Shown one piece after another: positions 38,032-57,289 of a stretch of DNA of 64,000 nt. Positions within the stretch are counted from its first letter, which is position 1. Every line of letters starts with the position of its first letter. The DNA comes from Lachnospiraceae bacterium (GTDB lineage: Bacteria; Bacillota; Clostridia; Lachnospirales; Lachnospiraceae): assembly GCA_017624855.1 (NCBI GenBank), contig JAGAMF010000007.1:1-64000 (forward strand), given 5' to 3'. The notes beneath the pieces are model-generated. The model was not told the origin of the DNA. It worked only from the letters and a program-made list of their open reading frames with translations, and made no database searches. A program made the position numbers and the translations under genes.

Positions 38032-39855
38032 ATGAAAAAAATAAATAAGACATATTTTTATATATTGGCAGGATTCCTGTGTATAATCTTATATTATTTA
38101 CCTTATTTTATTTTAGGGCAAAATGCATCATTCCGTATTACGGATTTTTTGGATGATGAGATTATACAGTATCTTTATAATGGAAAATATTTGTTTGCAT
38201 CTTCCGATACTATTGTAGAAGAATGGTTATCGGGCGCACCCCTGGCAACCATTCAGGCTCCTTGTTTTACCTTGATTTTATTCTTTAAGTTTTTGCCGTT
38301 TTTTGAAGCGGTAATGGCCAGTTGTATTTTTGGAACGGTTTTTGCTTTTTTGGGCATGTTTCTTCTCTGCGATAAGATTTTAAAAGGCGAGAAAAAATAT
38401 GTGACATTGATGACATCCGTATTGTTTTGCATTTTACCGTATTATCCGCCTTACGGCTTATCTTCCGTAGGCATTCCACTGGTTATTTGGGCATGTATTC
38501 GAATGTTTGAAATCGTGCAGGAAGACAAAAGTGTAAAATTCGGAAAACTATTTGTTAAATGCCTGCCTTACATCTTAGTATGTATCTTTTATGCCTTGTC
38601 GTCGTCTTTGATTTGGGCCGGATATTTTGTTGTGGGATTTATGGTGCTTGCCGGTATCATTATGTTGTGTAAAAAGAAAAAAACCGGTTGGTTTCTTCTT
38701 ATTACATCAATGTTTATGACACTTACCTACTGTTTTGTTTTTCGCGAAACACTGATTAGCGTATTGTTTGAAACCTTTGTTTCTCATCGCTCGGATCCCG
38801 ATAAGATTTACAGTGCATCGGATTTTTTAACTTCATTTATTGACATGTTTAAATACGGACAATACCACGCTCCCAGTTTACACACCTATATCATGGCGTT
38901 TTCACTTTTGATGGTTGTGGCCGGTCTGATATTTTATAAGAAGATGGATAAAACTACAAAACATAGAATTATGCTGGCAACAACGGTATGGGCAAGCTTG
39001 TTGTTTATTGCGCTTTTTCACGGATTTTATGTTTGCGAAATAGGATTGGAAGTACGTAAATACCTGGGGCCTTTGGAAAGTTTTCAGTTAAATCGAATTT
39101 ATTGGTTAAATCCTACTCTTTGGTATTTGGAACTTGCCTTATCCGTTATGATATTGTTTGCAATTGTTGAATTCCTTGCTAATTGGTTACTTAAATTTAT
39201 TAACAGTAAAAAGGAAAACATTACCGAAAAAACCAAAAAAGTATTGATGCAGGTTTTTCGTGTGGGATTTGTGGTAGCGTTTGGTCTGTTTTTTGCAAAC
39301 TATATTATTCATCATATATGCAGCGTGGAATATTATACTAATGTTCAGCGCGTTTTTGGAAAAGAGACCGGGCATTGGACATATCACGAATTTTATGATC
39401 ATGAATTATTTGATGAAATCGAAACTTATATCGGAATGGACCAAAGTGAATATCGCATCGGTTGCGTAGGATTTGTACCGGCTATTGCTCAGGCAAACGG
39501 ATTTTATACGGTGGATGCTTATTCGACAAACTATCCTTTGGATTATAAGTATAAGTTCCGAACCGTAATTGAAAAGGAACTGGATAAAAGTGCCACTCTA
39601 ACAAGTTATTATGATCATTGGGGCAGCCGTTGCTATATTTTCTCCGCTGAGTTGGAGACGAAATTCCAAACCGGAAAAGACGAAAATATTGTGTTGGAAA
39701 ATTTTGAAATCAATACAGAGGCTTTAAAAGATTTAGGTTGCGACTATATCTTTTCCGCAGTAAAAATCGGAAATGCCGAGGAGATTCATTTGACGCTTTT
39801 GGATGTGTTTACCACAGAAAGCAGTAAAATCGAAATTTATGTATACGAACTTTAA
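38032..39855 (+). CDS. Large polytopic membrane protein (DUF6044-like)
   Basis: The 607-residue protein has about 10-12 TM helices (from residue 8 to about 430) and a soluble C-terminal domain (about 440-607). The first loop has ITDFLDDEIIQYLYNGKYL, with an Asp pair soon after TM1 as in GT-C glycosyltransferase-like membrane proteins. I place it near the DUF6044 family, function unknown. AT-rich sequence, single gene, followed by a strong terminator. Confidence 0.75.
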   Translation: MKKINKTYFYILAGFLCIILYYLPYFILGQNASFRITDFLDDEIIQYLYNGKYLFASSDTIVEEWLSGAPLATIQAPCFTLILFFKFLPFFEAVMASCIFGTVFAFLGMFLLCDKILKGEKKYVTLMTSVLFCILPYYPPYGLSSVGIPLVIWACIRMFEIVQEDKSVKFGKLFVKCLPYILVCIFYALSSSLIWAGYFVVGFMVLAGIIMLCKKKKTGWFLLITSMFMTLTYCFVFRETLISVLFETFVSHRSDPDKIYSASDFLTSFIDMFKYGQYHAPSLHTYIMAFSLLMVVAGLIFYKKMDKTTKHRIMLATTVWASLLFIALFHGFYVCEIGLEVRKYLGPLESFQLNRIYWLNPTLWYLELALSVMILFAIVEFLANWLLKFINSKKENITEKTKKVLMQVFRVGFVVAFGLFFANYIIHHICSVEYYTNVQRVFGKETGHWTYHEFYDHELFDEIETYIGMDQSEYRIGCVGFVPAIAQANGFYTVDAYSTNYPLDYKYKFRTVIEKELDKSATLTSYYDHWGSRCYIFSAELETKFQTGKDENIVLENFEINTEALKDLGCDYIFSAVKIGNAEEIHLTLLDVFTTESSKIEIYVYEL

Positions 39856-42133: not shown

Positions 42134-42207
42134 CGATGCGTGGCTCAGCTTGGTAGAGCGCTGCGTTCGGGACGCAGAGGTCGCAGGTTCAAATCCTGTC
42201 GCATCGA
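42134..42207 (+). tRNA. tRNA-Pro (anticodon CGG), integration target
   Basis: Acceptor CGATGCG pairs with CGCATCG. The anticodon loop TTCGGGA gives CGG, and the T-loop is TTCAAAT. The 3' half from 42162 is the left copy of the att repeat, so the end of the gene is supplied by the integrated element and the tRNA stays functional. Confidence 0.95.
42162..42200 (+). repeat. attL core, 39-bp direct repeat
   Basis: Runs from the 5' side of the anticodon stem to the 3' end of the T-stem of tRNA-Pro and is identical to 59706-59744. Similarity continues a further 9 bp with two mismatches. Confidence 0.92.
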
Positions 42208-42214
42208 TGAAAAG

Positions 42215-42242
42215 AGAACTCTCAATTTGAGGGTTCTTTTTT
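42215..42242 (+). terminator. Intrinsic terminator after tRNA-Pro
   Basis: AGAACTCTCAA/TTGAGGGTTCT stem (one G-T-type mismatch) followed by T6. It lies on the element side of attL, so the element supplies the terminator of the tRNA transcript. Confidence 0.8.
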
Positions 42243-42337
42243 GTTGCTAAATGCAGTGTTTTCGGGGCTTGCAAGAGATTGCAAAGATTGTGTTCTAGTG
42301 TTGAGTCGGTTGTGCGATGGAAGTAGTTAAAAAGTGC

Positions 42338-42358
42338 AGTTCTAACCGAGTTCTAACC
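42338..42358 (+). repeat. Left pair of putative integrase arm sites
   Basis: AGTTCTAACC occurs at 42338-42347 and again at 42349-42358, phased by 11 bp. The same pair appears near the right end at 59574-59592. About 140 bp inside attL, as expected for arm-type sites. An inverted partner TTAAAAAGTG (42327-42336) matches CACTTTTTAA at 59599-59608. Confidence 0.6.
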
Positions 42359-42415
42359 ATTTTTCTAAAATTTGCAGTTACATTAAAGAAATTTAAATGT
42401 CTAAAATGGAAAGAG

Positions 42416-42437
42416 TAAGTCTATCTAGGTAGACTTA
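42416..42437. repeat. Palindrome TAAGTCTA-N6-TAGACTTA
   Basis: A 22-bp near-perfect palindrome (20 of 22). Its left part, extended to 42413-42431, is identical over 19 bp to 46015-46033. The rest of 42243-42505 shows no gene. Confidence 0.55.
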
Positions 42438-42492
42438 TTATAAGGGGAATAAACGAGAAGTTTATTGACGAAAATAATAATTTTTAATATAA

Positions 42493-42512
42493 TTGCAATA
42501 TATAGATTGCAA
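42493..42512. promoter_or_regulatory. Operator 1: TTGCAA-N8-TTGCAA
   Basis: A 20-bp near-palindrome, 19 of 20 identical to operator 2 at 44080-44099. It lies next to a TATAAT box (42514-42519). Probably bound by the small XRE repressor at 43775-44011. Confidence 0.6.
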
Positions 42513-42808
42513 TTATAATCAATCCAGAAATTACGGATTGCGTAAATAAAAATTATGGACACCGTGAAAATGTATGTGTACTGTATAATGGAAATCCATT
42601 TATAGCCGACGGTGGCGAAGATAAACCGAATACTCTGTATTTAAACATTACAGATTTCTTACTTGCCATAGATAAGTATAAAGATATGGATAAGGTAATG
42701 GAAGTTTTAACCAAAGATTTACCCTTGTTAAAGCCTAACGAAAATGGGGATATTATTTTCCCTAGTGAAGTACAGGCTTGTATTGAACAAGTGGAAATAG
42801 ATTTATAA
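42506..42808 (+). pseudogene. 5'-truncated gene remnant
   Basis: An open frame of 100 codons follows a TAG at 42503 and ends at TAA 42806-42808 but has no ATG, GTG or TTG before codon 59. The encoded sequence (ENVCVLYNGNPFIADGGEDKPN, LPLLKPNENGDIIFPSEVQ in parts) looks genuinely coding. A competing ATG frame (about 42554) stops after 16 codons. Most likely a gene that lost its start by a small deletion or frameshift. Family not recognised. Confidence 0.45.
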
Positions 42809-42872
42809 AAAAAAGAAAGGAAGAAAGTGACGCTCTTGCGAGTGAATACGAGAAAGAAAGGAAGAATTTAAT

Positions 42873-43289
42873 ATGAAAGAAAACGGTTGGGTATGTGAAA
42901 CTTTTGAAGAATTTAAACAGTATTATAAATGCCCTAAAAAATTTATTGAAGAAGAAGGCGAACAATGGGCTGATGAATGGTTACGCTATGAATGGGACAC
43001 AAATCACGATAAGTTAGTGGTTATGGGAAATACTGTATTTCCGTATGCTGATAAGCGTTATTTACAGTTTCGTTCTTATTGTGTGGAACACATAGGCGAC
43101 GACCACTTCTCTTATATTTTTAGGGGCAATTTTAATATGACTGATGATGATAAAAAATCTCTTGTAGAACAGATTAACAGTTTACCCGACGAAATTTATG
43201 ATTTGTTACAGGACATTGGCGATTACTATGACTTTAATCGGGAATTTGTAGAAGGAACTTATGAAATTCCGCAACTTGCAAGAAACTAA
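42873..43289 (+). CDS. Hypothetical protein
   Basis: The 138-residue acidic protein is rich in Tyr, Asp and Glu (ADEWLRYEWDTNHDKLVVMGNT), with no signal peptide or TM and no recognised family. AAGGAAG upstream of the ATG. It lies between the gene remnant and a small coiled-coil gene at the left end of the element. Confidence 0.7.
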   Translation: MKENGWVCETFEEFKQYYKCPKKFIEEEGEQWADEWLRYEWDTNHDKLVVMGNTVFPYADKRYLQFRSYCVEHIGDDHFSYIFRGNFNMTDDDKKSLVEQINSLPDEIYDLLQDIGDYYDFNREFVEGTYEIPQLARN

Positions 43290-43433
43290 ACGCAAAATGG
43301 AAGCCTTGAAATAAGGCTTTCATTTTATGTCTTGTTTAATGCAGAATTTTGTAACGGTTTTATTATTATTTTGTTATATAATAATTATATTATATAAATA
43401 TAAAATTATTTTTTATAAGAAAGGAAAAATGTT

Positions 43434-43739
43434 ATGGCAACAAACACAAACACAGGAACGAATGATGATAAGAAAAACTTATGGCAGGCTTTAAAGGAAC
43501 TTATCGAAGCCTTCCGTAAATTGATTGAGAACAAAGGTAAGATACCCGTTTTGGAACGGGAAATCAGCAATTTGCAACAGACCGTTGAAGATATGAGTTG
43601 GGTTAGCGTAGCCAACTACGACCAACTTGAAGCGTTGACAGAAAAGATTGATGTAATCAGCAAGAAGTTGGCTGTTGCAAATAAGGACTGCATGAAGCAC
43701 TCGATATACATAATAAAACAATATAATCACACAATATAA
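43434..43739 (+). CDS. Hypothetical small helical protein
   Basis: The 101-residue protein has a Thr/Asn-rich N-terminus and then two amphipathic helices (residues about 15-55, 62-85) with coiled-coil character. GAAAGG ribosome site. It converges with the XRE gene across a shared terminator. Function unknown. Confidence 0.65.
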   Translation: MATNTNTGTNDDKKNLWQALKELIEAFRKLIENKGKIPVLEREISNLQQTVEDMSWVSVANYDQLEALTEKIDVISKKLAVANKDCMKHSIYIIKQYNHTI

Positions 43740-43776
43740 AACCACTGCCTAGATTTTATGGCAGTGGTTTGTTTTT
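43740..43776. terminator. Terminator between convergent genes
   Basis: AACCACTGCC/GGCAGTGGTT 10-bp stem with a 10-nt loop, then TTTGTTTTT. Ends the 43434 gene and overlaps the 3' end of the minus-strand regulator. Confidence 0.8.
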
Positions 43777-44011
43777 ATACATCCAGAAAGAAATCGTTGT
43801 ATTCGCAATGAAAGAGTTCTTTCAAAGTTTTTAATTCAGATATCCGGATATTATAGGTTCCGCATTCGATTTGAGAATAGGCACTACGAGATAATTCGCT
43901 ACCATTTAATTGTAGATGGGCGACAACTTGTTCTTGGGTGTATCCGGCATTCTGTCGAAGTAAACGAATGGTATTTCCGATTGAGATATCTTGCTTTATT
44001 TTTTGTGACAT
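43775..44011 (-). CDS. XRE family helix-turn-helix repressor
   Basis: The 78-residue protein is a single Cro/CI-type HTH domain: IRLLRQNAGYTQEQVVAHLQLNGSELSRSAYSQIECG in the family pattern, with the recognition helix near residues 38-48. AAGGGGAT ribosome site. Three copies of a TTGCAA-type operator lie at 44038, 44080 and 42493; the nearest covers a TATACA box suitable as its own -10, so autorepression is likely. Confidence 0.88.
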   Translation of the reverse strand: MSQKIKQDISIGNTIRLLRQNAGYTQEQVVAHLQLNGSELSRSAYSQIECGTYNIRISELKTLKELFHCEYNDFFLDV

Positions 44012-44037
44012 GTTTTATCCCCTTTGCAACAAATAAA

Positions 44038-44057
44038 TTGCATTGTATAGATTGATT
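44038..44057. promoter_or_regulatory. Operator 3 (degenerate) at the XRE promoter
   Basis: Matches operator 1 at 15 of 20 positions (TTGCA..TATAGATTG shared). On the minus strand it contains TATACA, the probable -10 of the XRE gene, 27 bp from its start codon. Confidence 0.5.
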
Positions 44058-44079
44058 TTAGTGATTTTAATAGGCATAA

Positions 44080-44099
44080 TTGCAATATATAAATTGCAA
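44080..44099. promoter_or_regulatory. Operator 2: TTGCAA-N8-TTGCAA
   Basis: 19 of 20 identical to operator 1. It lies in the divergent region between the XRE repressor and the short open frame at 44128. Confidence 0.6.
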
Positions 44100-44127
44100 C
44101 AGAATTTAAGAAAAAAGGGGTTAAAAT

Positions 44128-44175
44128 ATGACAAAAGATGAAAAATTAGATGCACAGTGGTCTTATTTATTCTGA
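44128..44175 (+). other. 15-codon open frame with a strong ribosome site
   Basis: MTKDEKLDAQWSYLF preceded by AAAAAAGGGG at good spacing, directly downstream of operator 2. It may be a leader peptide or the first codons of a gene now truncated. No continuation in other frames was recognised. Confidence 0.35.
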
Positions 44176-44269
44176 CTTGCAAGATACTAAGTCATACTAG
44201 AAGAAATTAGCAAGAATAGGACTCTGACTTATTAGACTGACTAGATTTTGCAAAAATACTGTAAAAACA

Positions 44270-44299
44270 TTGACAAGCAAGTCAGGCTTGCTATATAGT
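44270..44299 (+). promoter_or_regulatory. Promoter with internal palindromic operator for the 44324 gene
   Basis: TTGACA at 44270-44275 and TATAGT at 44294-44299 (18-bp spacer). The spacer is filled by AGCAAG-TCAGG-CTTGCT (44276-44292), a 17-bp inverted repeat ideally placed to block RNA polymerase. Confidence 0.7.
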
Positions 44300-44323
44300 C
44301 ACATTAAACAGGAGGTAAAAGAG

Positions 44324-45277
44324 ATGTCAGCAAAAATAAATAATGCCGAAGCGAAGAAAAATTTTGCCCATGAACTTAACCAAAAATTGAGACGATATGA
44401 TATGTCCGAGTCAAAACTGGCACGAGAAATCAATGTAGCGCAGAAATCAATTAACCGATATTGTAATGCACAGACTTTACCGAGTGAGGATGTGCAGAAG
44501 AAGATAAGAGTATATTTTAATACATTGGAGTTGCAGGAATTGCCTCCGGGAGAAAGACCCATGACGGTGAAAGAAATTGAGGAAATGGAGGAGTACTTCC
44601 GTTGTGAACAAGTGGATGAGTCAGGGGATGATTATTATGAATATTGTATGAAGTGTGGAAGTAAAGTAGCGAATAATCTGGAATACTATAAGCCTGAGGC
44701 ACAGAAATATATTCTAAAATACTTCGATATTTTTCAGTATATGGGTCTTGATGAGATGACATTTATTGAACGTATGCGTAAACTTCCAGAGAGAGAAGAA
44801 GAAATGATAAGAGGTATGATGGAACAAGTGCCGGTTACTATTGAGATGTTTCTTATGGATATAGATGAGGTTTATGCGTCGAGAACCGAATATGAGACTA
44901 TGAAGCGTTATGAAAAACGTCTGCGTTGTATTGACGAAGAGATTAGTGATTTTTTTGCTACTGTTGATCAAAAAACCGGTAAGCCCATAAAAAAGTTGAG
45001 CAAAGAAAACATTGACAAATTTATGGAAGAATGTGACACCTGTTTTTATGCATCCGGCGAGGCTGTGCGAAGTGATTTTTTTGATATTGTTAATAAAACA
45101 ATAGACTATCGCTATACGGATTGGTACTATTTGTTCCTGTTATCCCGTACACGTTTGGCAGACAGAGCAGATTGGCCATGCAAACAATATCATCTGGAAG
45201 ATTTTCCGGAAAAAGCGATGGGCTCGCGCGAGTTTATGTTGTGGGAAAAACTGAATTGGTATTGTAGAAGAGTATAA
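44324..45277 (+). CDS. HTH-containing protein of unknown role
   Basis: The 317-residue protein has an N-terminal XRE-type HTH (MSESKLAREINVAQKSINRYCN, about residues 26-47), a CMKCG half zinc-finger near 108 and a long charged helical C-terminus. It could be the regulator that binds the inverted repeat in its own promoter. The ATG at 44324 follows an AGGAGG. First of three closely spaced genes (to 46020). Family not recognised. Confidence 0.72.
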   Translation: MSAKINNAEAKKNFAHELNQKLRRYDMSESKLAREINVAQKSINRYCNAQTLPSEDVQKKIRVYFNTLELQELPPGERPMTVKEIEEMEEYFRCEQVDESGDDYYEYCMKCGSKVANNLEYYKPEAQKYILKYFDIFQYMGLDEMTFIERMRKLPEREEEMIRGMMEQVPVTIEMFLMDIDEVYASRTEYETMKRYEKRLRCIDEEISDFFATVDQKTGKPIKKLSKENIDKFMEECDTCFYASGEAVRSDFFDIVNKTIDYRYTDWYYLFLLSRTRLADRADWPCKQYHLEDFPEKAMGSREFMLWEKLNWYCRRV

Positions 45278-45311
45278 GAGTATAAGAGACAGTAGGAAAA
45301 GGGATAAAAAG

Positions 45312-45605
45312 ATGGGATGTAGAGTAAAAGAAAAAGCAGGACGATTTGTGGAAGATATGATAGATATCCATTTGCAGGAAATAAAAGAAACGGATGAAGC
45401 ATACAGGGTTGTCTTGCACGATTTGGAAGAGATAGTAAATGGTGTAAAAGCGGTTATGGAGCAGTTGGATAAAACGCAGCGAGAACTTTTAGCAGACTAT
45501 GATGAGCGTAAGCATATTGTAGAACAGGAAAAAGGACGCTGTTTGTATTTAGCCGGCATTAAGGACGGTGTCAGATTGGCAAAGTATTTACAAATCAATG
45601 ATTAG
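45312..45605 (+). CDS. Hypothetical helical protein (DUF6809-like)
   Basis: The 97-residue all-helical protein ends with GRCLYLAGIKDGVRLAKYL, a tail resembling small proteins common on clostridial mobile elements (DUF6809-type). The match is from memory and tentative. 34 bp after the previous gene and 16 bp before the next. Confidence 0.65.
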   Translation: MGCRVKEKAGRFVEDMIDIHLQEIKETDEAYRVVLHDLEEIVNGVKAVMEQLDKTQRELLADYDERKHIVEQEKGRCLYLAGIKDGVRLAKYLQIND

Positions 45606-45621
45606 ATAAGGAAGAGGTAGT

Positions 45622-46020
45622 ATGAGTTTTTATAGAGCGCGTGTAGGTGTTGTTAAGATAAAGCAAGAATTTATTCAGGAAATGGAATATTTGTTTCGTG
45701 AAGAATACGATAAAATTACAGACAAAGAGTTTAAAAAATTTATATCGTATTATAAAAAAGACCTCATTAAAAAACCTATACGAAAATGGACGCACAATAA
45801 TGCTAAAGGAGAGTGGTTGGGTAAATACAAAACTTCCTTTGAAAACGGAATACTTACATTTGGTGTATACTACAATAGTAGCGGTGGAAATATGAAATGG
45901 TATGTAGATGCATTTGAGGACATTGTTTTTGGGTATATTGCAGAAGAAGAATTGGTTGATGAATATTGGGATGAAGATGATTTATGGAAAAAAGATAATA
46001 CATTAAAAAACATTGAGTAA
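45622..46020 (+). CDS. Hypothetical protein
   Basis: The 132-residue protein has a basic N-terminal half (KKFISYYKKDLIKKPIRKW) and a very acidic C-terminus (EEELVDEYWDEDDLW). No TM, no recognised family. GGAAGAGG ribosome site. The last codons overlap the start of a 19-bp repeat shared with 42413-42431. Confidence 0.68.
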   Translation: MSFYRARVGVVKIKQEFIQEMEYLFREEYDKITDKEFKKFISYYKKDLIKKPIRKWTHNNAKGEWLGKYKTSFENGILTFGVYYNSSGGNMKWYVDAFEDIVFGYIAEEELVDEYWDEDDLWKKDNTLKNIE

Positions 46021-46061
46021 GTCTATCTAGGTATACCTAGGTATACCTAGGTATACCTAGG
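46015..46061. repeat. 19-bp repeat copy plus tandem 10-bp palindromic repeats
   Basis: 46015-46033 is identical to 42413-42431. It runs into GTCTATCTAG followed by three exact GTATACCTAG units (46031-46060). Each junction forms the perfect palindrome CTAGGTATACCTAG, so these are stacked binding-site-like palindromes just after a stop codon. Confidence 0.75.
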
Positions 46062-46155
46062 ATTCATATTACATTAACAATTAATTGATAGGAAAATGGT
46101 TATTGTAAAATCAATACAAATAGTGCCGGAAACAGTTTAGAAAGAGAGAAAGGCA

Positions 46156-46428
46156 TTGGCATACATTGCACAAAAAATAACAAAAGAAATTAGGAATGGA
46201 AAGACTTGTAAGGTACACTATTTACTAGCCGTTACCACAAAAGATTTAGAAGAGTGGTTTGGTATATTGGATGAAGAGCATTATGGATTTGTTTGGTTTG
46301 GAAGGCACGAAGTACAGTTTGCAAAACTCTATAATGATTCGGATATTGTTATTGTTCAAACCAAGTTTGAAATAAAGGTTAGATATATTTTAAAGCATTA
46401 TCGTGAGGATATTTTTAGGGGCGTTTAA
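46156..46428 (+). CDS. Hypothetical protein, TTG start
   Basis: The 90-residue basic and aromatic protein (KDLEEWFGILDEEHYGFVWFGRHEVQF) starts with TTG after GAGAGAAAGG. No ATG is available near the N-terminus, so the TTG is preferred. Family not recognised. The stop lies 2 bp before the U-tract end of the predicted minus-strand RNA. Confidence 0.6.
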   Translation: MAYIAQKITKEIRNGKTCKVHYLLAVTTKDLEEWFGILDEEHYGFVWFGRHEVQFAKLYNDSDIVIVQTKFEIKVRYILKHYREDIFRGV

Positions 46429-46429
46429 T

Positions 46430-46508
46430 AAAAAAAGAAGATGTCCTTAGGTCTGGGGTGCATACGGACAATGCCGTAGAGAGCCAGTCCTATCAAGGAA
46501 CATCTTCT
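46430..46508 (-). ncRNA. Predicted ~79-nt hairpin RNA
   Basis: Read on the minus strand: promoter at 46542-46515, predicted start at about 46508, exactly at the base of a long imperfect hairpin. The arms AGAAGATGT...ACATCTTCT, CCTT/AAGG, TAGG/CCTA and CTGG/CCAG stack around an apical TACGG/CCGTA loop. The hairpin is followed directly by seven U (A-run 46430-46436). The whole transcript is one folded unit with its own terminator. It is also antisense to nothing annotated. No Rfam family recognised by eye. Confidence 0.6.
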
Positions 46509-46514
46509 ACTGTT

Positions 46515-46542
46515 AGTCTATCACATTTATTAAAGATTTCAA
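46515..46542 (-). promoter_or_regulatory. Promoter of the predicted hairpin RNA
   Basis: TTGAAA (46542-46537), 16-bp spacer, TAGACT (46520-46515), minus strand. The distance from the -10 to the hairpin base is 7 bp. Confidence 0.55.
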
Positions 46543-46615
46543 TGGTATTATAGTTAAAAAAATTATATGACACTTTGGGACTGTCTTATGATGTTATAGA
46601 AGGGAGCGAGATTTT

Positions 46616-46819
46616 ATGAGTAAAATAATGTATGGCGAAAATGATAATTACCATTATCGTTCTTCAAGCGAAATGTCGTTGACAGAACAATTAAATTCAG
46701 CAAAAGAAGCATTAGATGCTGCTATAAGATTGTCACAAACAAATAAAAGTGATTATTTGGATAATAAAATAATAGAAATAAAAGAAAGAATATTGCAATT
46801 AGAACAAGAAAAAAAATAA
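46616..46819 (+). CDS. Hypothetical small coiled-coil protein
   Basis: 67 residues; the second half is a heptad-like helix (SLTEQLNSAKEALDAAIRL ... ILQLEQEKK). GAAGGGAG upstream of the ATG. Unknown function; start of the unrecognised cargo cluster. Confidence 0.65.
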   Translation: MSKIMYGENDNYHYRSSSEMSLTEQLNSAKEALDAAIRLSQTNKSDYLDNKIIEIKERILQLEQEKK

Positions 46820-46902
46820 CAAATCTTTAAAAAAAACCACTTGATACTTTTGAGAATGCCAAAGGCATTGTTGTTTACGATTATAGGGAAGGATAAAAGA
46901 TT

Positions 46903-47058
46903 ATGGAAAATTATAAACCTACACGGACTTTGACGGAAATGTTTGCCGAAGTTCGTAAAAATTTTGAGAAGGAAAATGGAAGGTTGTTAACCGAGGACGA
47001 AGCGCTTGCCTATACCGAAGAGATTAGAAGAGACATTCAATCGAGAAAAGATAAATAG
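46903..47058 (+). CDS. Hypothetical 51-residue protein
   Basis: The highly charged helical peptide MENYKPTRTLTEMFAEVRKN... ends DIQSRKDK. AGGGAAGGAT ribosome site. It ends 18 bp before the 422-residue gene. The size and charge would suit an antitoxin or small partner of that protein, but this is a guess. Confidence 0.6.
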   Translation: MENYKPTRTLTEMFAEVRKNFEKENGRLLTEDEALAYTEEIRRDIQSRKDK

Positions 47059-47076
47059 AAGGGGGAAAATATTTAA

Positions 47077-48345
47077 ATGAACGCACAAGAGATTTTTCGT
47101 TATATCGATAAGATTCATACAAGAATAGGTTTTGCCGAAAGGATAGGAATGCTGGAAGAAAACTGGAAATTATTTGACGAATTATATGAATTGGCAGCAA
47201 CGGTAGAACCTTATGATAAGTATCGTGATGGAGAGGATAGAATGTTTTGGATACATGCTCCGCGGGGAACGTATGAAGAATTTGCTGAAACATTTCAATT
47301 ACATTTTACAGAGACAACCATTGAAGATTATTTTGCCGGAAAGAAGGGGGTTTTGAATGTTGAAAGAATGAAAAGTCAATGGCCTGTAATGTTTCCGGAT
47401 GAGACTTGTTGGTTTAAATTATATCTTGCAAAACACTGTGATGTTCGTGGGTTGCATATGGAGGGAGACTGGTTGGTAGATACCAGAGACCGTTATAAAG
47501 AGAGAATGGATATGGAACCGCTACTTCAATGGATGATAGATGAAGTCAAAGAATGTATTGAAATGATTAAAGAAGGTACCTATGGGAAGTTTCTGGAAGA
47601 AAATCTTCCCTATAAGCACAGGTCAGGTATTGTGGATAGTCAAATCTTCTGGAAATATGTTCCGGAAGACAGGGATCATACTTTACGCGGTGTTGATCCG
47701 AAAGAGTGGGACGAATTTTTGGCGTGGTTAGATGAGGATGAATTATCTCGCGGATGGACGGAAATGTGTGCCGGGGATTATTTTAAGGCATGTGATCTCC
47801 TATATGATGAATTAGGTCTTAAAGAAAAATTTCCCATTATTATAAGTGATAATCCGACACCACGGGATTTTTATATTGTATATTCCGATGGAAGGGATAT
47901 GGGACCGGATGGAAAGCATTTGCGAGAGATTGATGAAGACTCTGCGGAAGTATTCGCGCGCTGGGTGGAAAAAGGAGCGCTGGAAGAACATGCATGGGAG
48001 ATTTGCCTGACGCCACTTCTTATACTGCGCCCTGAAAAAATGAAAGATAAATACTTTTTATCGCTATATGAACATCATTTGTCAGAATATGGGAGTATCA
48101 TTCATTTACAACTTGCCCTGTTGCGTGCAGGATTTCCGATTCGTAAAACTCAGTGGATTGCGGATAGGCTTATGCAAAATCAAAAGTTTGGTATTCAGCC
48201 GTTAGGAGATGAGTTTGCATGGCGTTATACCTATGAAAACAAAATCGAATTGGAGGATTACAGGAATCTTCCGGAATTGCCAAGTGATGAATTGATTCAG
48301 GCAATAGAGTGGATACCGCTTGGTGAGTGGAAGATGAAAAATTGA
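47077..48345 (+). CDS. Unrecognised 422-residue cargo protein
   Basis: Soluble, acidic and very Trp-rich (WFKLYLAKHC, WDEFLAWLDEDELSRGW, AWEICLTPLL). No TM, no nucleotide-binding motif and no catalytic signature that I can name. The length and globular composition suggest a real enzyme or effector. GAAGGGGG ribosome site. Flanked by the small 46903 gene and the 270-residue 48413 gene on the same strand. Codon use is AT-richer than the chromosome. Confidence 0.75.
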   Translation: MNAQEIFRYIDKIHTRIGFAERIGMLEENWKLFDELYELAATVEPYDKYRDGEDRMFWIHAPRGTYEEFAETFQLHFTETTIEDYFAGKKGVLNVERMKSQWPVMFPDETCWFKLYLAKHCDVRGLHMEGDWLVDTRDRYKERMDMEPLLQWMIDEVKECIEMIKEGTYGKFLEENLPYKHRSGIVDSQIFWKYVPEDRDHTLRGVDPKEWDEFLAWLDEDELSRGWTEMCAGDYFKACDLLYDELGLKEKFPIIISDNPTPRDFYIVYSDGRDMGPDGKHLREIDEDSAEVFARWVEKGALEEHAWEICLTPLLILRPEKMKDKYFLSLYEHHLSEYGSIIHLQLALLRAGFPIRKTQWIADRLMQNQKFGIQPLGDEFAWRYTYENKIELEDYRNLPELPSDELIQAIEWIPLGEWKMKN

Positions 48346-48412
48346 TTTTGAGAAGGCGGTAGAAGAGATAAGGCGTTGCAGGTAGATTGAGGAACCACAA
48401 GGGGTATGATTT

Positions 48413-49225
48413 ATGAGACTTGAAGAAAAACAAATAAAGTGCATAGAAGAAATTTTAAATTCTGAATCGTTTGATGAAGAAACATTGGAAAAATTAACGG
48501 GGAAATTTGAACAAAAAGAAAAAATCAGATACATATACGGTGCCTTAACACAACAATATGCCGAGTTAAATATTGTTAAAATATGTGAAAATAATGATAA
48601 AGACAAAATCATTGATTTCTTAAATCGTCTTATGAAATCGGAATTAGAAGATAAAGAGAGAGATAGATATGCGGTAAGCATTATTACACAGGCGGAACTG
48701 GAAGAGTTTAGAATTTTGGCAGAGGAAACCGATAAAATCAGTAAAGAAGAGTTATCCAAAACAGCACCGGTTCTTACCACAAGAAGTTATATGGATATGT
48801 GTCGAATTGTTTATGATGCAACATCGGAGTGGAAGTATCCCGATGATATTTCAACTGCTTATTTGTATTGTAAGGCTAGACTTACCTGTTTCGGAAGCGA
48901 ATATAAGGAAGGAATTTTTGGAGTTGACTGGGATTCGCCCGAAGAGTTTGTTTATGGGTTTCTGTCATCCTATCATCACGAAGAATTAGAGTTTGGTGGA
49001 TTAACAATGTACATCCACGATGAAAGTGGATATCGGGGTCATAATTTATATGAAAAGCCTGATACATACAGTAGGTGGACAGGACTTATTTGTTGTGATG
49101 TAAGCGTGATTCGTTCTATTCGGATGTTTCTTGCGTTAAGAAAGGCTGAATACCCAGTATACTTTTATGAATATGAAAAGGCATATTTGCAAGCAAAAGA
49201 ATATTGTGCACAGTATTATCGGTAA
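48413..49225 (+). CDS. Unrecognised 270-residue cargo protein
   Basis: The N-terminal 110 residues are charged helices (LEEKQIKCIEEILNSES). The C-terminal part is rich in Tyr and Trp (GVDWDSPEEFVYGFLSSYHHEELEF, RWTGLICCDVSVIRSIRMFL). No family recognised. 67 bp after the 422-residue gene, with a terminator immediately downstream, so it closes the cluster. Confidence 0.7.
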   Translation: MRLEEKQIKCIEEILNSESFDEETLEKLTGKFEQKEKIRYIYGALTQQYAELNIVKICENNDKDKIIDFLNRLMKSELEDKERDRYAVSIITQAELEEFRILAEETDKISKEELSKTAPVLTTRSYMDMCRIVYDATSEWKYPDDISTAYLYCKARLTCFGSEYKEGIFGVDWDSPEEFVYGFLSSYHHEELEFGGLTMYIHDESGYRGHNLYEKPDTYSRWTGLICCDVSVIRSIRMFLALRKAEYPVYFYEYEKAYLQAKEYCAQYYR

Positions 49226-49249
49226 CTTATCTTTAGGATTTATATTGTT

Positions 49250-49276
49250 GAAGACACGATTGTTCGTGTCTTTCTT
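49250..49276 (+). terminator. Intrinsic terminator
   Basis: AAGACACGA/TCGTGTCTT 9-bp stem with a 4-nt loop, followed by T-rich sequence. Confidence 0.75.
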
Positions 49277-49411
49277 CTGACTTGTTTAATACCAAATTTA
49301 ATGTATGTGCTATTAGTATTAAAACTTGCAGATGCAGTTCGTATTTGAGTATATAATTCATATACCAAATGTAACGATGGTCTGTTTTTGTATAGCATAA
49401 GGAGAGATAAA

Positions 49412-50089
49412 ATGGCAATTTACGGATATTGTAGAATAAGTAAAGCAAAGCAATCAATTGAAAGACAGATACGAAATATCAAAGCGGTATATCCGGATGC
49501 AATCATTGTGCAGGAAGTATTCACTAGAACGCGTATGGAACGCAAGGAATGGATGAAACTATACGCAAAGATAAAGTCAGGGGATACGATTGTATTTGAT
49601 AGTGTTAGCCGAATGAGTGGAAATGCCGATGATGGCTTTTCGGCATATGAGGAACTTTTTAACAGGGGTGTGGTTCTTATCTTCTTAAAAGAACCGCATA
49701 TTAATACAGATACATATAAAAAGGCATTGGAGAGTAACATTGACTTAACAGGAACCAATGTAGACTATATTTTGGAAGGTATCAATAAGTATTTGCTGTC
49801 TCTTGCTAAAGAGCAGATTAGGCTTGCATTTGAGCAGTCAGAGAAGGAAGTCGAAGATTTGCATCAAAGAACCAGAGAAGGCATTGAAACGGCTAGATTA
49901 AACGGAAAACAGATTGGACAGCGTAAAGGTGCCAAGTTGAATGTTAGGAAGGCAAATGAATCCAAGGAAGTGATATTAAAACATAGCAAAGATTTTGGTG
50001 GTAGCCTAGACGATCAAGAGGTGATCAAATTGGCAGGGATATCTAGAAATTCGTTTTATAAGTACAAAAGAGAATTAAAAAGTGTATAA
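49412..50089 (+). CDS. Serine recombinase, resolvase/invertase type
   Basis: The 225-residue protein starts AIYGYCRISKAKQSIERQ with the catalytic serine near residue 10. DSVSRMSGNADDGF (about 73) matches the resolvase LDRLGR region, though altered to SRMSG. A long helix precedes the C-terminal HTH (DQEVIKLAGISRNSFYKY). It could resolve dimers or invert a segment. No flanking inverted sites were found by eye. The start with AAGGAGAG is preferred over the ATG 24 bp upstream. Confidence 0.88.
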   Translation: MAIYGYCRISKAKQSIERQIRNIKAVYPDAIIVQEVFTRTRMERKEWMKLYAKIKSGDTIVFDSVSRMSGNADDGFSAYEELFNRGVVLIFLKEPHINTDTYKKALESNIDLTGTNVDYILEGINKYLLSLAKEQIRLAFEQSEKEVEDLHQRTREGIETARLNGKQIGQRKGAKLNVRKANESKEVILKHSKDFGGSLDDQEVIKLAGISRNSFYKYKRELKSV

Positions 50090-50128
50090 TGATAGGAGAA
50101 ACCAAAATTTGAATTTGCTGGAGATATT

Positions 50129-50863
50129 ATGAAAAACATTAAGATAAAAAAGACAGTTTATATTGTATTTGTTATAGTAGGTTTGTTCATTGTTCAAACT
50201 TTTGCAAGCAAGTTAGGTGGTTTCATTGCTGATTTATTTCAATATGCAGTGATTGATAAAGACGGTACATTTATGAGTATCTCTGTGCATCATATTATTC
50301 AGATGATAGTGGCTTTAGTGCTTATTTTTGTTATCAGTAAGAAAAGTGATTTAGAATTTTGGTTAAAGCCGAGGTTAAATAAGAGCGGTATACTATATAC
50401 GACGATTTTTGCTATTGTCATTTTAATATATGTTCTTATTAGTTATGTCGTTGGATATTCACTTAATACAATTGTGCCATACGCATATGAGTTAAATGTA
50501 GCAAATGTATTAGGAACATTAGGGTTTCAACTGTTTTTATCAGGAACATCAGAAGAAATTTTGTTTAGAGCATTTCCGATTACCGTTCTTGGTGGAGTAA
50601 TAGGAAAAGATAATAAAAAAGGTTATGCATTTATTATTGTAATAGCCTCGGTACTATTTTCTGTTGCACATATCCAATGGTCATTGTTTCCTGTTTCATT
50701 AACTTTTTCATGGTTTCAGTTGATTTATGCATTTATATTAGGTATAGCGTATGGATTTACATATGTGAAATCAGAAAGTATTATTTACCCCATGATTATG
50801 CACGGATTGAGCAATTTCTTTATGGTGGGAATTGGGTATATATTTATGGCTGTGATGAGTTGA
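50129..50863 (+). CDS. CPBP family intramembrane protease
   Basis: The 244-residue protein has about seven TM helices. The CPBP/ABI motifs are EEILFR (about residue 140), a histidine in FSVAHIQWS (about 180) and HGLSNF (about 225). Family members include CAAX-protease-like enzymes and bacteriocin self-immunity proteins. Possible envelope defence role within the element. Confidence 0.85.
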   Translation: MKNIKIKKTVYIVFVIVGLFIVQTFASKLGGFIADLFQYAVIDKDGTFMSISVHHIIQMIVALVLIFVISKKSDLEFWLKPRLNKSGILYTTIFAIVILIYVLISYVVGYSLNTIVPYAYELNVANVLGTLGFQLFLSGTSEEILFRAFPITVLGGVIGKDNKKGYAFIIVIASVLFSVAHIQWSLFPVSLTFSWFQLIYAFILGIAYGFTYVKSESIIYPMIMHGLSNFFMVGIGYIFMAVMS

Positions 50864-50923
50864 TATATAGTTAAGAGCATGCCCAAATTTCAGTTTCACG
50901 CAGGGATGATTACAAAAAAAGAT

Positions 50924-50958
50924 ACCCAATTTTACAATAAAATGTTGGGTGTTTTTTT
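50924..50958 (+). terminator. Intrinsic terminator
   Basis: ACCCAA...TTGGGT stem extended by ATTTTA/TAAAAT pairs, followed by T7. The rest of the 50864-51114 gap shows no gene. Confidence 0.75.
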
Positions 50959-51114
50959 GAATAGTTTAACATAATGATATTGGATTATAAGGGTGGTATT
51001 CTTGATGACTATTAGATATTAAAATATTTAGAATGGTCAACATTGGCTATAAACTGCGTTCTTGGGATAAAATTTTAAATTTAACTTTAGAGTGATAAAG
51101 GTGTTCAATCGGCA

Positions 51115-51143
51115 TTGTAATTATTCCTCTAGAGGAATATAAT
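51115..51143 (+). promoter_or_regulatory. Promoter overlapped by a 16-bp perfect palindrome
   Basis: TTGTAA at 51115-51120, 17-bp spacer, TATAAT at 51138-51143. The spacer holds ATTCCTCTAGAGGAAT (51123-51138), a perfect palindrome that should be the operator of the adjacent HTH gene. Confidence 0.7.
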
Positions 51144-51174
51144 ATTGGTATAGAAATTCCGTCGGAGGATTTAA

Positions 51175-51339
51175 ATGAAATATATATCAACAAGCGAAAT
51201 GGCTACGAGGTGGAGTATTTCGCGAAGACGAGTAACTATATTATGTTCGCAAGGACGTATTAAAGGTGCAGTGTTAACAGGAAATACATGGCTAATACCA
51301 GAGAAGGCTGAAAAGCCTAAAGATATGCGAAGGAAATAA
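51175..51339 (+). CDS. Small excisionase/MerR-like helix-turn-helix protein
   Basis: 54 residues: STSEMATRWSISRRRVTILCSQGRIKGAVLTGNTWLIP is the winged-HTH pattern of DNA-binding excisionase-type (HTH_17) proteins. TCGGAGG precedes the ATG. Its stop touches the next start. Likely binds the palindrome in its promoter. Confidence 0.75.
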   Translation: MKYISTSEMATRWSISRRRVTILCSQGRIKGAVLTGNTWLIPEKAEKPKDMRRK

Positions 51340-51579
51340 ATGGAAGATAGTATGAAAATAGGAATTATTGATGCAGACCTTTTAGGTAGAAAAAAGCACC
51401 GATTTCCCAATCTTGTTTGTGAAAAAATATCTGCTTATTGGAAAGAGCATGGCGCAGAAGTGCATTTAAAGTTAGACTATGAAAATTTGTTTTATGACAG
51501 AGAGGTTCATAAAGTAATTAGGGAAATTGAGTCTTGTGTAATGGATAGAAAATTTAGCAAGGAATGGGGTTGGGATTAA
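51340..51579 (+). pseudogene. N-terminal fragment of a radical-SAM/B12-binding-type protein
   Basis: The first 47 residues (MKIGIIDADLLGRKKHRFPNLVCEKISAYWKEHGAEV in pattern) resemble the N-terminus of clostridial radical-SAM proteins of several hundred residues. The sequence then breaks into an unrelated-looking stretch and stops at 79 residues. A further 23-codon GTG frame with a good ribosome site (51601-51672) may be another shred. Most likely the remnant of a larger gene after internal deletion. The family call is from memory. Confidence 0.45.
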
Positions 51580-51708
51580 ATATGACAAGGGGGAGTTTTC
51601 GTGTTTGTAGTTCAAGGATATCGGGGTATAACTCATTCCGGAAGATATAAATTAGAAAATATTAAAGTTTAAATATAATAATACATTCAGTAAAAATAAG
51701 AAGAAAAG

Positions 51709-51755
51709 AATAACCACTACAAAATGATGATTAAAAATCAAGAGTAGTGGTTATT
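51709..51755. terminator. Stem-loop, probable terminator
   Basis: AATAACCACTAC pairs with GTAGTGGTTATT (12 bp) around a 23-nt loop. It lies between the plus-strand genes and the 3' end of the minus-strand primase gene. Confidence 0.55.
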
Positions 51756-51771
51756 ATACTTCTTGCATATA

Positions 51772-51874
51772 CACACCAGGGGTGGGGGGGTCAGCAAAAA
51801 TTTTATCAAAATAATATATTATATAATTTTTATATAAATTTAATATAGGAAATATATTAGATTTATATAAAGAT
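51772..51874. other. G-rich tract plus AT-rich stretch, possible replication origin
   Basis: A run AGGGGTGGGGGGG (about 51778-51790) is followed by about 75 bp of almost pure A/T just beyond the 3' end of the primase-helicase. An AT-rich unwinding region beside an initiator gene is a common origin layout. No iterons are seen here, so the call is weak. Confidence 0.3.
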
Positions 51875-53797
51875 TTATACAATTACTTGACCTTCATACC
51901 CTTCAGGTGTGTTTACAACTTCAAAACTTGTGCTTGATGCTGAAATATTACTAAATACATAGTATTTTTCGCTGTTTTTCTGATCTATACGCATTTCTAA
52001 ACCAGATTCTTTTATATAAGCATAGTATGAGTGAATATTCATTCCAAGTGAGGTTGCGGTACTTGGAATTTCACATCCGATTTCTTTTGACAAATCCAGA
52101 ATTTGTTGACAGCGTAATCGTGAAGTTCCCGTAGATAATGCATGTTTTATAGTTTTCACTAGGTTTTTCTTGATTTCATCACAGGCGGAAGTCGGTCCTA
52201 TCAAGCGAGACCATGTAGTTTCGTTGTACACTAATTCTAAATCTATTGCAGGCACATTTTTTCCAGTTACTGACAATGTGTAGATATCCTTCTTTCTGGT
52301 GTTGTTCAATAGTAATAAAGTGTCAGCAACACCAGAGTGAGCCACTGACCCAAATGTACCGGAGATGGGGTCATTATCTCGTGAACCTTTGGGGGAATGA
52401 TGAACTAATAAAATTGCAACATGATATTTTTGTGCAATTGCTTTTAATAGTGTAAATTCTGTATATACGCCATCATAATTGCTTTTGCTGTTATGAATAG
52501 TACGCAATTGTGCAATCATGTCTATGATAACAAGTTTTATGGAAGGAGTAGCACATAGTGTGGCTTCTAACCTATCTTCAAAACCCTTCCCGAGTTTAGG
52601 GGGATTATCATCTTTATAATACATAAAGGATTCGACATTTGTATCGCTAAATTGCGAATTATTTCTTGCTTGTCGAACGATTTCACCGGCTTCAAAATCA
52701 AAAAATAAAACATCTGTTTTTTGAGTAGGATATCCTAAAAAATCCGTTCCGGTTGCAACTGCATATCCTAATTGAGTGACGAAGAAAGATTTTCCGATTT
52801 TAGGACGCGCAGAAAGAAAAATTAGACCTTCACTAATCAAATTGTCAATAATGAATAATGGTTTTTCTAATTCTGTTTCCATAAATTCTTTCATTGAAAT
52901 TACAGAAAATGCATTTGAGGAGGGGGTGGTCTTATTTGCTACATTATGTGCAGTACAAGAAGAAATTGCTTTTTCAATTGTTCGTTCGATATAATCGTCA
53001 CGATCTAATTTATCGCGATACAAACCGCTTGCTTTCCAAACTTCTTTCATTACAGATGGATCACCACATGAATAGTAGTTTGCCTTTTGCATTAGTGCTA
53101 AATCTGCTTCTGACTGGCTTTTATAGTGTGCTTCCCATTTGCCATTAATTAAATCCACATATTTGGCAGTTCCTTCGGCTTTGATAAGGGATATGATGTT
53201 CGCGCTATTTGCGTGGTGCATAGTACTATTTACAGAGACAGGAGTATTGGTTGACACATTGCATACATTTTCTAAAAACTTGTCGCAAATTAGATCTAAC
53301 TCGGTTTGTTTATCAGAAGGCTCCGTTGCATAGATTGCATTGAAAGTCATAGCGATATAGCGTTTATTATCGTAAACTTCTATTTCCCCTTTTTTAGACA
53401 ACTTCGTATTTTTCTTACCACGAAGAAAAATATGTATACCAGTGCCGGATTGAGATACTTCCATATATGTATCAACGCCAATTATTGATAATACATCTTG
53501 AGCCAAGGGTGTAATTTCGCCAGTTTCATCTATGCAATGATCAAGGTCAATTACAACAATATCATCTTCGCTTGTTATCACAAAGCCTAATCCAACACAA
53601 TGAGGATTGTTATTCAGTGCTGCTATTGCTACATCATAAGTAGCCCAAGTATCTGGATTGCTGACACTGGCTTTGGCAGTGGGTTCATTTGGGTTATAGG
53701 GGACTTTGTTTTCATCCCGAAGAACCCATTGTTTCTTTGTTTTTAATAACTCTGGGGTAAAATTGTTAGTTGTTTGTAAATTTAAATAATTATTCAT
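51875..53797 (-). CDS. Primase-polymerase/helicase replication protein
   Basis: The 640-residue protein has an N-terminal prim-pol domain (about residues 10-190), with the metal site VVIDLDHCID (about 84) and SQSGTGIHIFLRG (about 118). After a linker comes a RepA-type AAA ATPase: Walker A ARPKIGKSF (about 332), Walker B KLVIIDMIAQL (about 420) and HHSPKGSRDNDPISGTFGS. A C-terminal winged-helix-like part follows. This two-activity protein is typical of self-replicating satellites and plasmids. AAAGGA ribosome site. Confidence 0.88.
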   Translation of the reverse strand: MNNYLNLQTTNNFTPELLKTKKQWVLRDENKVPYNPNEPTAKASVSNPDTWATYDVAIAALNNNPHCVGLGFVITSEDDIVVIDLDHCIDETGEITPLAQDVLSIIGVDTYMEVSQSGTGIHIFLRGKKNTKLSKKGEIEVYDNKRYIAMTFNAIYATEPSDKQTELDLICDKFLENVCNVSTNTPVSVNSTMHHANSANIISLIKAEGTAKYVDLINGKWEAHYKSQSEADLALMQKANYYSCGDPSVMKEVWKASGLYRDKLDRDDYIERTIEKAISSCTAHNVANKTTPSSNAFSVISMKEFMETELEKPLFIIDNLISEGLIFLSARPKIGKSFFVTQLGYAVATGTDFLGYPTQKTDVLFFDFEAGEIVRQARNNSQFSDTNVESFMYYKDDNPPKLGKGFEDRLEATLCATPSIKLVIIDMIAQLRTIHNSKSNYDGVYTEFTLLKAIAQKYHVAILLVHHSPKGSRDNDPISGTFGSVAHSGVADTLLLLNNTRKKDIYTLSVTGKNVPAIDLELVYNETTWSRLIGPTSACDEIKKNLVKTIKHALSTGTSRLRCQQILDLSKEIGCEIPSTATSLGMNIHSYYAYIKESGLEMRIDQKNSEKYYVFSNISASSTSFEVVNTPEGYEGQVIV

Positions 53798-53840
53798 AAT
53801 AAAAATTTCCTTTCTATAATAAAATTATTTCTATTTATAT

Positions 53841-53914
53841 AAAGACACAAGCAGAAAAGAGAATGTTCCGATTATTACAAATTGGAAATGCACGGTCTTT
53901 TTACTTGTGTCTTT
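53841..53914. repeat. Inverted repeat between integrase and primase genes
   Basis: AAAGACACAAG (53841-53851) and CTTGTGTCTTT (53904-53914) form an 11-bp perfect stem with a 52-nt loop beyond the 3' end of the integrase. Terminator for the minus-strand integrase or a regulatory hairpin. Confidence 0.5.
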
Positions 53915-53933
53915 ACTTATTTACTTCATTTAC

Positions 53934-55160
53934 TTAAAGTCCAGCATACATCTTGGCTAATTGTTCACCAATTTTCTGCTTTTCCTTTTCGCTCTTGATT
54001 TTGGCATAAATTTTTAAGGTTGTTTCAATGTCTTTGTGACCGACCCAAGCCTGTATTTTCTTTACATCAAAACCGGCGTCAATCAAATTCGACACACAAG
54101 AGTATCTCAAACTGTGAAAATGAACATCTTGAGGTAACTCAGGGTGCTTTTTGATTATTTTTTTGATTAACTTCGACGGATAATCAGGGTAATACATTTT
54201 TCCGTTTTCGTGTTTGAATACATAGTCATTTTCAATGTATGTATTTCCGAAGAACTCACGGAATTTTGTTTGTTTTACCCATTCATTCTTAAATAATTCG
54301 CATAAATCGTCCGTTAACGGATAGGTACGGAAACTCTCATCGGTTTTGGTATCATCCTGCTGGTTGACACGCGTTCCGATAGTAACCGTAGAGGCTACTC
54401 GCAATGTTTTGCGATTTAAGTCTACATTAGACCACTTTAAGCCGATGGCTTCTTCTCTGCGTAAGCCGAAGCGGATAGCAAGAACAAATAGTAGATAGAG
54501 AGGGTGATCTTTTACCAAAGTTAAGAATAATTTGCATTCTTCTTGGTCAAAAAAGTTTGTACCATCAATATTTGTATACTTTTTCTGGCTGATTAATTCC
54601 GCATCGGGTTTTGCTTTTTTTACAACATTTTCACTGACAATGCCATTATCTATGCAGTAATCAAAGATTTGAGAGAATAAAAGCCGAATATCTTTTACAG
54701 TTCTGGCGCTTAATCCTGTTTCAGACCCTTTGCGGACATGAGTAATAGCATTATTACCAGAAGTTAAGAGATAGTTTAGAAAGTTTTCCGCATCTTCTGT
54801 TTTTAATTCATTTATGGAGATATTACCAAAATAATCAGCAATATGTTTACCACGATGAAGGTAAGAAGAATAGGTTGTATTTCTAATTTTTTTCTCTTTA
54901 TTCGCTAAAAAGTGATAGACTGCGTCGCTAATTGCTAGTTGTCCGGAGGATATTTGTTTCCTGCTGTATAAATCAATTAACTTACGATTGCGTAAGTTTT
55001 CTGCTTCATTATAATTTGCAGGAATGTCCGTTAATCCGGTAGCATACCATTTCTTTTGTTGCTTTCGCTGACCGTTAACAATGGTAGAAAAAGAGATAAC
55101 TGCATAGAGTTTCCCTTTTTTTGACTGTATGCCATTGGGTCTTTTTACTTGTCTTTTCAT
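53934..55160 (-). CDS. Tyrosine site-specific integrase
   Basis: The 408-residue phage-type integrase has an N-terminal arm-binding domain (about residues 1-60, KGKLYAVISFSTIVNGQRKQ) and a SAM-like core-binding domain (about 65-165). The catalytic domain has Arg in RFGLRREEAIGLKW (about 231), HSLRYSCVSNL (about 350), VGHKDIETTLKIYAK (His about 375, Tyr about 384). All catalytic residues are present. It should recombine the tRNA-Pro repeats. Lies 11 bp downstream of the excisionase gene. Confidence 0.95.
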   Translation of the reverse strand: MKRQVKRPNGIQSKKGKLYAVISFSTIVNGQRKQQKKWYATGLTDIPANYNEAENLRNRKLIDLYSRKQISSGQLAISDAVYHFLANKEKKIRNTTYSSYLHRGKHIADYFGNISINELKTEDAENFLNYLLTSGNNAITHVRKGSETGLSARTVKDIRLLFSQIFDYCIDNGIVSENVVKKAKPDAELISQKKYTNIDGTNFFDQEECKLFLTLVKDHPLYLLFVLAIRFGLRREEAIGLKWSNVDLNRKTLRVASTVTIGTRVNQQDDTKTDESFRTYPLTDDLCELFKNEWVKQTKFREFFGNTYIENDYVFKHENGKMYYPDYPSKLIKKIIKKHPELPQDVHFHSLRYSCVSNLIDAGFDVKKIQAWVGHKDIETTLKIYAKIKSEKEKQKIGEQLAKMYAGL

Positions 55161-55170
55161 AATGTTTCAA

Positions 55171-55362
55171 TTAACTGAAACTCAAAAGAAATTTAATTAA
55201 AGAATCTTTTGTAATCAAATACTTTTTGCCTAATTTCATTGAGGGAAGCGTTCCGTCTTTGATAAGACCATAAACGGTATTTTTACCCAGCCTTAAGACT
55301 TCACAAACTTCGTCAATGGTTAATACATCATTATAATTGATTAACATTGAGTTTCTGCTCAT
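55171..55362 (-). CDS. Excisionase-like helix-turn-helix protein
   Basis: The 63-residue protein has LTIDEVCEVLRLGKNTVYGLIKDGTLPSMKLGKKYLI, the winged HTH pattern of phage/transposon excisionases. AAAGGAGG lies 6 bp before the ATG. It forms an operon with the integrase under the promoter at 55431-55458. Confidence 0.88.
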   Translation of the reverse strand: MSRNSMLINYNDVLTIDEVCEVLRLGKNTVYGLIKDGTLPSMKLGKKYLITKDSLIKFLLSFS

Positions 55363-55397
55363 AATTATCCTCCTTTCTTTATAAAGCGTTCTTATAA

Positions 55398-57258: not shown

Positions 57259-57289
57259 TTGGGATATTTTAACAGGTATAGGAGTACAT

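Follow-up and report, generated by a model that had tools for sequence, protein, structure and literature searches.

A hairpin with a promoter-like site at its foot and a U tract at its end: a candidate small RNA of an integrated element at tRNA-Pro in a Lachnospiraceae bacterium

The window, the whole 64,000-nt stretch of Lachnospiraceae DNA that was analysed, contains a 17.5-kb segment (42162-59752) that is an integrated element at a tRNA-Pro gene (42134-42207, plus strand). The 3' part of this gene forms the left att repeat (42162-42208, plus strand), and a 47-nt right att repeat (59706-59752, plus strand) is identical to it at 45 of 47 positions. These repeats, together with a tyrosine integrase (53934-55160, minus strand), a 640-aa primase/helicase-like replication protein (AAA_25, NrS-1 HBD; 51875-53797, minus strand) and a serine recombinase gene (49388-50089), identify the segment as an integrated element. 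A Schlafen/AlbA-type gene is located at 57200-58738, and the remaining cargo includes HTH regulators as well as several proteins assigned to no family. The ORFs taken as genes from 44270 to 48345 lie on the plus strand, and they include a 90-aa ORF (46156-46428), a 67-aa ORF (46616-46819) and a 422-aa ORF without a family (47077-48345). The hairpin reported here occupies the 187-bp gap between the first two; the 90-aa ORF stops just before it, and the first paired base is the eighth after the stop codon. The first-pass annotation placed the hairpin in a stretch without genes, which does not agree with the coding-like codon use of these two ORFs: it resembles that of the element's longer genes, with z values of 3.9 (90 aa) and 3.5 (67 aa) against shuffled letters. 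Among the promoter matches listed between 46062 and 46616, none is on the plus strand.

The proteins encoded around the hairpin were searched for in several genome samples. The 90-aa protein was found in 1 of 299 genomes (its own), the 67-aa protein in 2 of 260 (its own and one weak match inside a 513-aa frame) and the 422-aa protein in 5 of 348 (its own and four distant relatives with 28-33% identity), and at E values up to 1e-60 the 640-aa primase was recovered from 1 of 145 genomes, again its own. The six best folds at each of the four loci of the 422-aa relatives were compared with the hairpin by eye, and none resembles it. Viral contigs contained no relative of the 90-aa, 422-aa or 640-aa proteins, plasmids matched neither the 90-aa protein nor the DNA of 44270-48270, and phages gave no match for a 132-aa protein. 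Nine stretches in the species-genome collection matched the patterns of the 422-aa protein, none of which was confirmed. PADLOC, NCBIfam and PHROGs provided no name for the submitted ORFs of 46156-48345, and Pfam matches to the ORFs of this region were below the cut-off; an NCBIfam match to the 90-aa ORF was discounted (16.7 bits where the cut-off is 137; E 0.006).

A sister genome (G006) shares the attachment site, and its DNA is 91-96% identical over the three ORFs of 44270-46020. After about 20 nt it continues into the sequence to the right of the element (window position 60131 onwards), so that only the left part is kept and the hairpin has no counterpart at that locus. A tandem 10-bp palindromic repeat (CCTAGGTATA) at 46018-46062 forms a 16-bp hairpin, and a related copy lies 3.6 kb to the left at 42416-42437. 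Because DNA similarity to G006 stops at or beside both places, this repeat may be a recombination or operator site. Another repeat of 24 nt (ATAATTGCAATATATARATTGCAA) is present at 42489-42512 and 44076-44099 in copies that are 96% identical and largely palindromic, one immediately upstream of the HTH gene at 43775-44011 and the other 1.3 kb past the end of this gene. G006 has a similar stretch in front of its own copy of the HTH gene, and the repeat looks like an operator.

The minus strand of the gap presents a compact order of promoter-like site, hairpin and U tract. Sequence matching identified a -35-like hexamer, TTGAAA (46537-46542), and a -10-like hexamer, TAGACT (46515-46520), which carries a TG extension (extended -10); the spacer between them is 16 nt within 46542-46515. 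Six nucleotides separate TAGACT from the start of the hairpin, and the predicted +1 at about 46508 is the hairpin foot. By match and position, this promoter-like site is placed to start a transcript there. Folding gives an imperfect hairpin body of 73 nt (46436-46508) with a 9-bp closing stem (AGAAGATGT/ACATCTTCT), four inner helices (CCT/AGG, TAGG/CCTA, CTGG/CCAG and TACGG/CCGTA) and an apical loop that reads CAUUGU on the minus strand and ACAAUG on the plus strand, free on both. The body ends in a U7 tract (46430-46436; A7 on the plus strand), whose first U can pair with A46508, leaving six U free. Hairpin 46508-46436 and U7 together make up a predicted intrinsic terminator with the tract as its tail, and the promoter-like site, fold and U tract predict a transcript of about 79 nt (46430-46508). 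The closing stem beside the U tract is A+U rich, which is weak for an intrinsic terminator, and the hairpin was not listed by terminator scans that allowed only loops of 3-8 nt. Farther upstream on the minus strand, 32 nt from the -10, lies a perfect TATAAT (46552-46547); it hints at a different start, so that the start of the transcript is uncertain. The core observation of the first-pass annotation, a TTGAAA-16-TAGACT site at the base of a long imperfect hairpin ending in U7, is confirmed for the minus strand at 46542-46430.

The combined layout of arms, T6 and promoter is unlikely to arise by chance, and the position of the promoter-like site at the hairpin foot is its unusual part. By themselves, promoter-like sites are no more frequent than chance predicts (78 in the element, against 81.5 ± 10 in shuffles); the TAGACT site is the only TG-extended one on the element's minus strand. 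Perfect 9-bp arms 20-70 nt apart and followed by T6 occur once on the minus strand of the window, at 46508-46436, for a shuffled expectation of 0.09 per strand (80 strands). The same search on the plus strand returned a single hairpin at 35493-35546, counted five times through its overlapping arms; it is long and near-perfect, has T6 behind it and lies at the edge of a gap between ORFs. When a well-placed promoter was added, defined as a promoter-like site with 3-10 nt between the end of its -10 and the arm, and overlapping arm pairs were counted apart, the full combination was found once, among 116 arm pairs in the window (50 of them in the element), and on 0 of 600 shuffled element strands, figures that somewhat overstate the case as the layout criteria were chosen after the site was seen.

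The structure itself does not choose a strand, since the same 25 pairs form on either one, all of them (25/25) Watson-Crick and none G-U. The stretch 46425-46512 folds at -28.9 kcal/mol on the minus strand (z -3.9) and at -33.6 kcal/mol on the plus strand (z -6.4), and shorter stretches of the region have z values of -4.3 and -4.7, respectively. In each of these four folds (both strands, both lengths), none of 200 shuffles folded as well. The plus-strand fold ranks 16th among the non-overlapping 90-nt folds of the 64-kb window, which was scanned on both strands in 5-nt steps (0.5th percentile -30.8). The promoter-like site at the foot and the U7 tract point to the minus strand, whereas the better fold and the place behind a stop codon point to the plus strand. 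Weighing these points, we prefer a minus-strand RNA, with roughly an even chance of being correct, and a minus-strand RNA gene is a fair reading of the layout.

The searches identified the hairpin in its own genome only, where it is present in one copy (the assembly is an estimated 74.5% complete). Rfam 15 at the gathering threshold returned only tRNAs in the whole window; at E values up to 10 the hairpin site drew four sub-threshold matches, the best of which (E 1.3) falls outside the hairpin. One of the four, to rliF, spans 46317-46508 and is far too weak (13.4 bits where the threshold is 60; E 8.4). In blastn searches of 61 genomes, its own and 60 relatives, nothing beyond the hairpin itself scored below E 0.0139, and the three best non-self matches consist of A-rich tail sequence of 18-20 nt. 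The covariance model R1, which was built from one sequence given twice and therefore finds fairly close relatives only, detected no convincing relative in 31 genomes of the genus, 397 of the family and 392 of the order (own genome included in each), with stricter filters in searches over more than 40 genomes (the family and order samples); weak matches with E values of 0.04-0.24 came from G006, G168, G346, G281 and, in the order sample, G563. Plasmids and phages contained no match to the hairpin, and an exact 22-mer from it had 0 matches in the species-genome collection. Two hairpin 15-mers match 58 and 35 viral contigs, and R1 found no good match in these 93 loci (best E 1.2). The covariance search proposed by the first-pass annotation thus produced no homologue in the genus, family and order samples, and its suggestion of conserved-type internal structure is unsupported by the Rfam, blastn, R1, plasmid and phage searches. 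Of the stand-alone RNA gene that it described, what stands is the compact promoter-hairpin-terminator layout, which is hard to obtain by chance.

Four other explanations of the locus were weighed against an antisense RNA. The hairpin could belong to the plus-strand message as an intercistronic structure, serving as a 3'-end stabiliser, an RNase III site or a weak terminator, with the minus-strand promoter and U tract coincidental in A+T-rich DNA. This is somewhat unlikely: the better plus-strand fold, which persists within a 351-nt plus-strand fold, the coding-like ORFs on either side and the plus-strand run of presumed genes are all consistent with it, but the plus-strand hairpin is not followed by a U tract, and a minus-strand promoter and U7 at the right places, a combination absent from all the shuffled element strands, would go unexplained. 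Decidedly improbable, in our view, is a minus-strand intrinsic terminator that only stops stray antisense transcription before the genes of 44270-46428 and involves no dedicated RNA gene. The hairpin with U7 and the convergent layout, in which the hairpin end meets the end of the plus-strand ORF, would suit such a role; the promoter-like site at the foot would not, and plain terminators seldom have a long multi-loop stem with an A+U-rich foot like the one found here. Moreover, no clear minus-strand gene was found from 46508 to the primase (51875, 5.4 kb away), where the minus-strand ORFs of at least 80 aa all overlap plus-strand ORFs, so that a pure terminator would have nothing clear to serve.

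An inverted repeat acting at the DNA level, either the remnant of a short transposable element or a site for protein binding or strand exchange, would require no RNA function at all. Pairing that is Watson-Crick throughout is what a DNA palindrome would give, 9-bp inverted pairs in the window exceed those in shuffles (58 vs 20 per strand), and the element encodes the serine recombinase mentioned above. However, the sequence is single-copy in its own genome and has no convincing match in 30 same-genus genomes, a result that also speaks against the multi-copy MITE that the first-pass annotation had named as a possible refutation, and inspection by eye revealed no target-site duplication beside the arms. 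We consider a DNA-level repeat improbable. A trans-acting RNA antisense to the host enolase mRNA is scarcely credible, and this mRNA was rejected as a target. It was raised by the R1 match in G006 (22.2 bits, E 0.04), which lies in a gene that translates as enolase by eye and in which 28 of 35 loop-region bases are identical, but the enolase gene of the hairpin's own genome matches at only 23 of 35. With 31 genomes searched, about one match at an E value of 0.04 per genome would be expected, which puts the G006 match at about chance level, and three other weak matches in the family do not read as enolase by eye.

Cis-antisense action on the plus-strand operon would be the most economical function for the hairpin RNA. 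Under this explanation, an orphan, self-terminating minus-strand RNA would regulate the operon in which it is embedded; we regard this as possible and the likeliest of the readings considered, and put it forward tentatively. RNA polymerase would start on the minus strand at about 46508, make one long hairpin and stop at the U tract at about 46430. In the message of a plus-strand operon spanning 46156-48345, the stretch that separates the 90-aa gene from the 67-aa gene would be the exact complement of this RNA, folded into the same hairpin. The minus and plus hairpins would then meet loop to loop, after which the duplex might be cut or read-through into the downstream genes blocked. The layout is observed, and from it we infer the minus-strand transcription, the plus-strand read-through and the antisense action. 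The reading draws on the same pairs, and free loops, on both strands; the complement is perfect by position, and ORFs of a putative plus-strand transcript lie on both sides. Cis-antisense RNAs are described as common on mobile elements (PMC5415839). Weighing against the reading are the better plus-strand fold, the A+U-rich closing stem, the upstream TATAAT, the failure to find a homologue in the samples searched and the lack of a plus-strand site among the promoter matches listed between 46062 and 46616. Duplex scores of the RNA with 20 translation starts of the element were not outstanding (best z -1.8 against shuffled RNA) and so give no indication of a trans target inside the element. That the locus represents a new antisense switch of the tRNA-Pro-integrated element, in which kissing minus and plus hairpins set the output of the orphan accessory genes downstream, is rather doubtful. 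If real, the minus-strand RNA would extend by one small RNA the control layer of this element, most of whose accessory genes have no family match. Such an RNA alone opens no long-standing question; the locus is useful chiefly because it offers a clear candidate for strand-specific RNA testing.

Loop-loop pairing is a feature of counter-transcript pairs, and the hairpin would offer the same pairs and free loops on both strands. As characterised in PMC5415839, the plasmid copy-control RNAs of ColE1 and pT181/pIP501 and FinP are short hairpins that reside on mobile elements and are complementary to an opposite transcript, as the minus-strand RNA would be. Unlike these RNAs, the hairpin has no Rfam match, its target transcript is a predicted one, and no replication or transfer gene lies directly beside it, the primase being about 5 kb away. 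The type I toxin-antitoxin RNAs of Clostridioides difficile prophages offer another likeness, an antisense RNA convergent with a small ORF on a mobile element, and their toxins are reported as 34-47 aa long with a hydrophobic N-terminus and a charged tail (PMC7699646). In contrast to the toxins described there, the convergent ORF, at 90 aa, exceeds this size and does not look like a membrane peptide by eye. A type I system was rejected after 12 ORFs of at least 20 aa at 46050-46620 were judged by eye, none of those convergent with the RNA fitting a hydrophobic toxin with a charged tail. Orphan intergenic sRNA candidates come from promoter and terminator scans. The hairpin is backed by the same kind of evidence, to which it adds a positional statistic, and no difference from these candidates can be named; as a new RNA it is unproven, but it makes a plausible candidate of the ordinary kind.

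The strongest fold of the window (8821-8910) lies elsewhere, in a dispersed, highly structured and covarying repeat family whose window copy spans 8796-8932 with its core at 8821-8908. The covariance model of this family recovers 8821-8908 (101 bits) and, weakly, 39262-39358 (13.9 bits) in the window, and it misses 46430-46508 at E values up to 10; membership of the hairpin in the family was rejected. Rfam has no match for the window copy and gave two matches far below threshold among 19 loci, and one repeat core searched against plasmids and phages had no match. The family has matches in 14 of 31 same-genus genomes (own included), with up to ten in one genome. From 42 matches listed, 30 copies were extracted (L149-L158 and L161-L180) and 26 aligned, leaving out L156 and L158, which have a different apical arm, L170, a near-copy of L169, and L173, which is the L178 locus in a second genome. 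The aligned copies share a conserved 88-nt core, and 14 of 21 predicted pairs have changed on both sides; the copies are not all independent, as L165 and L178 represent one locus in two genomes. Each copy is enclosed by an outer stem of 21-35 pairs in its flanks, mostly of different sequence from locus to locus. Pairing of a copy's own flanks averages -32.0 kcal/mol, compared with -10.7 ± 4.2 for flanks swapped between copies; of 650 swaps, 6 are as strong as the weakest own pairing. Within one genome, L169 and L170 match along 155 bp, roughly the extent of the hairpin, but not outside it, which suggests that the repeat hairpin moves as a unit.
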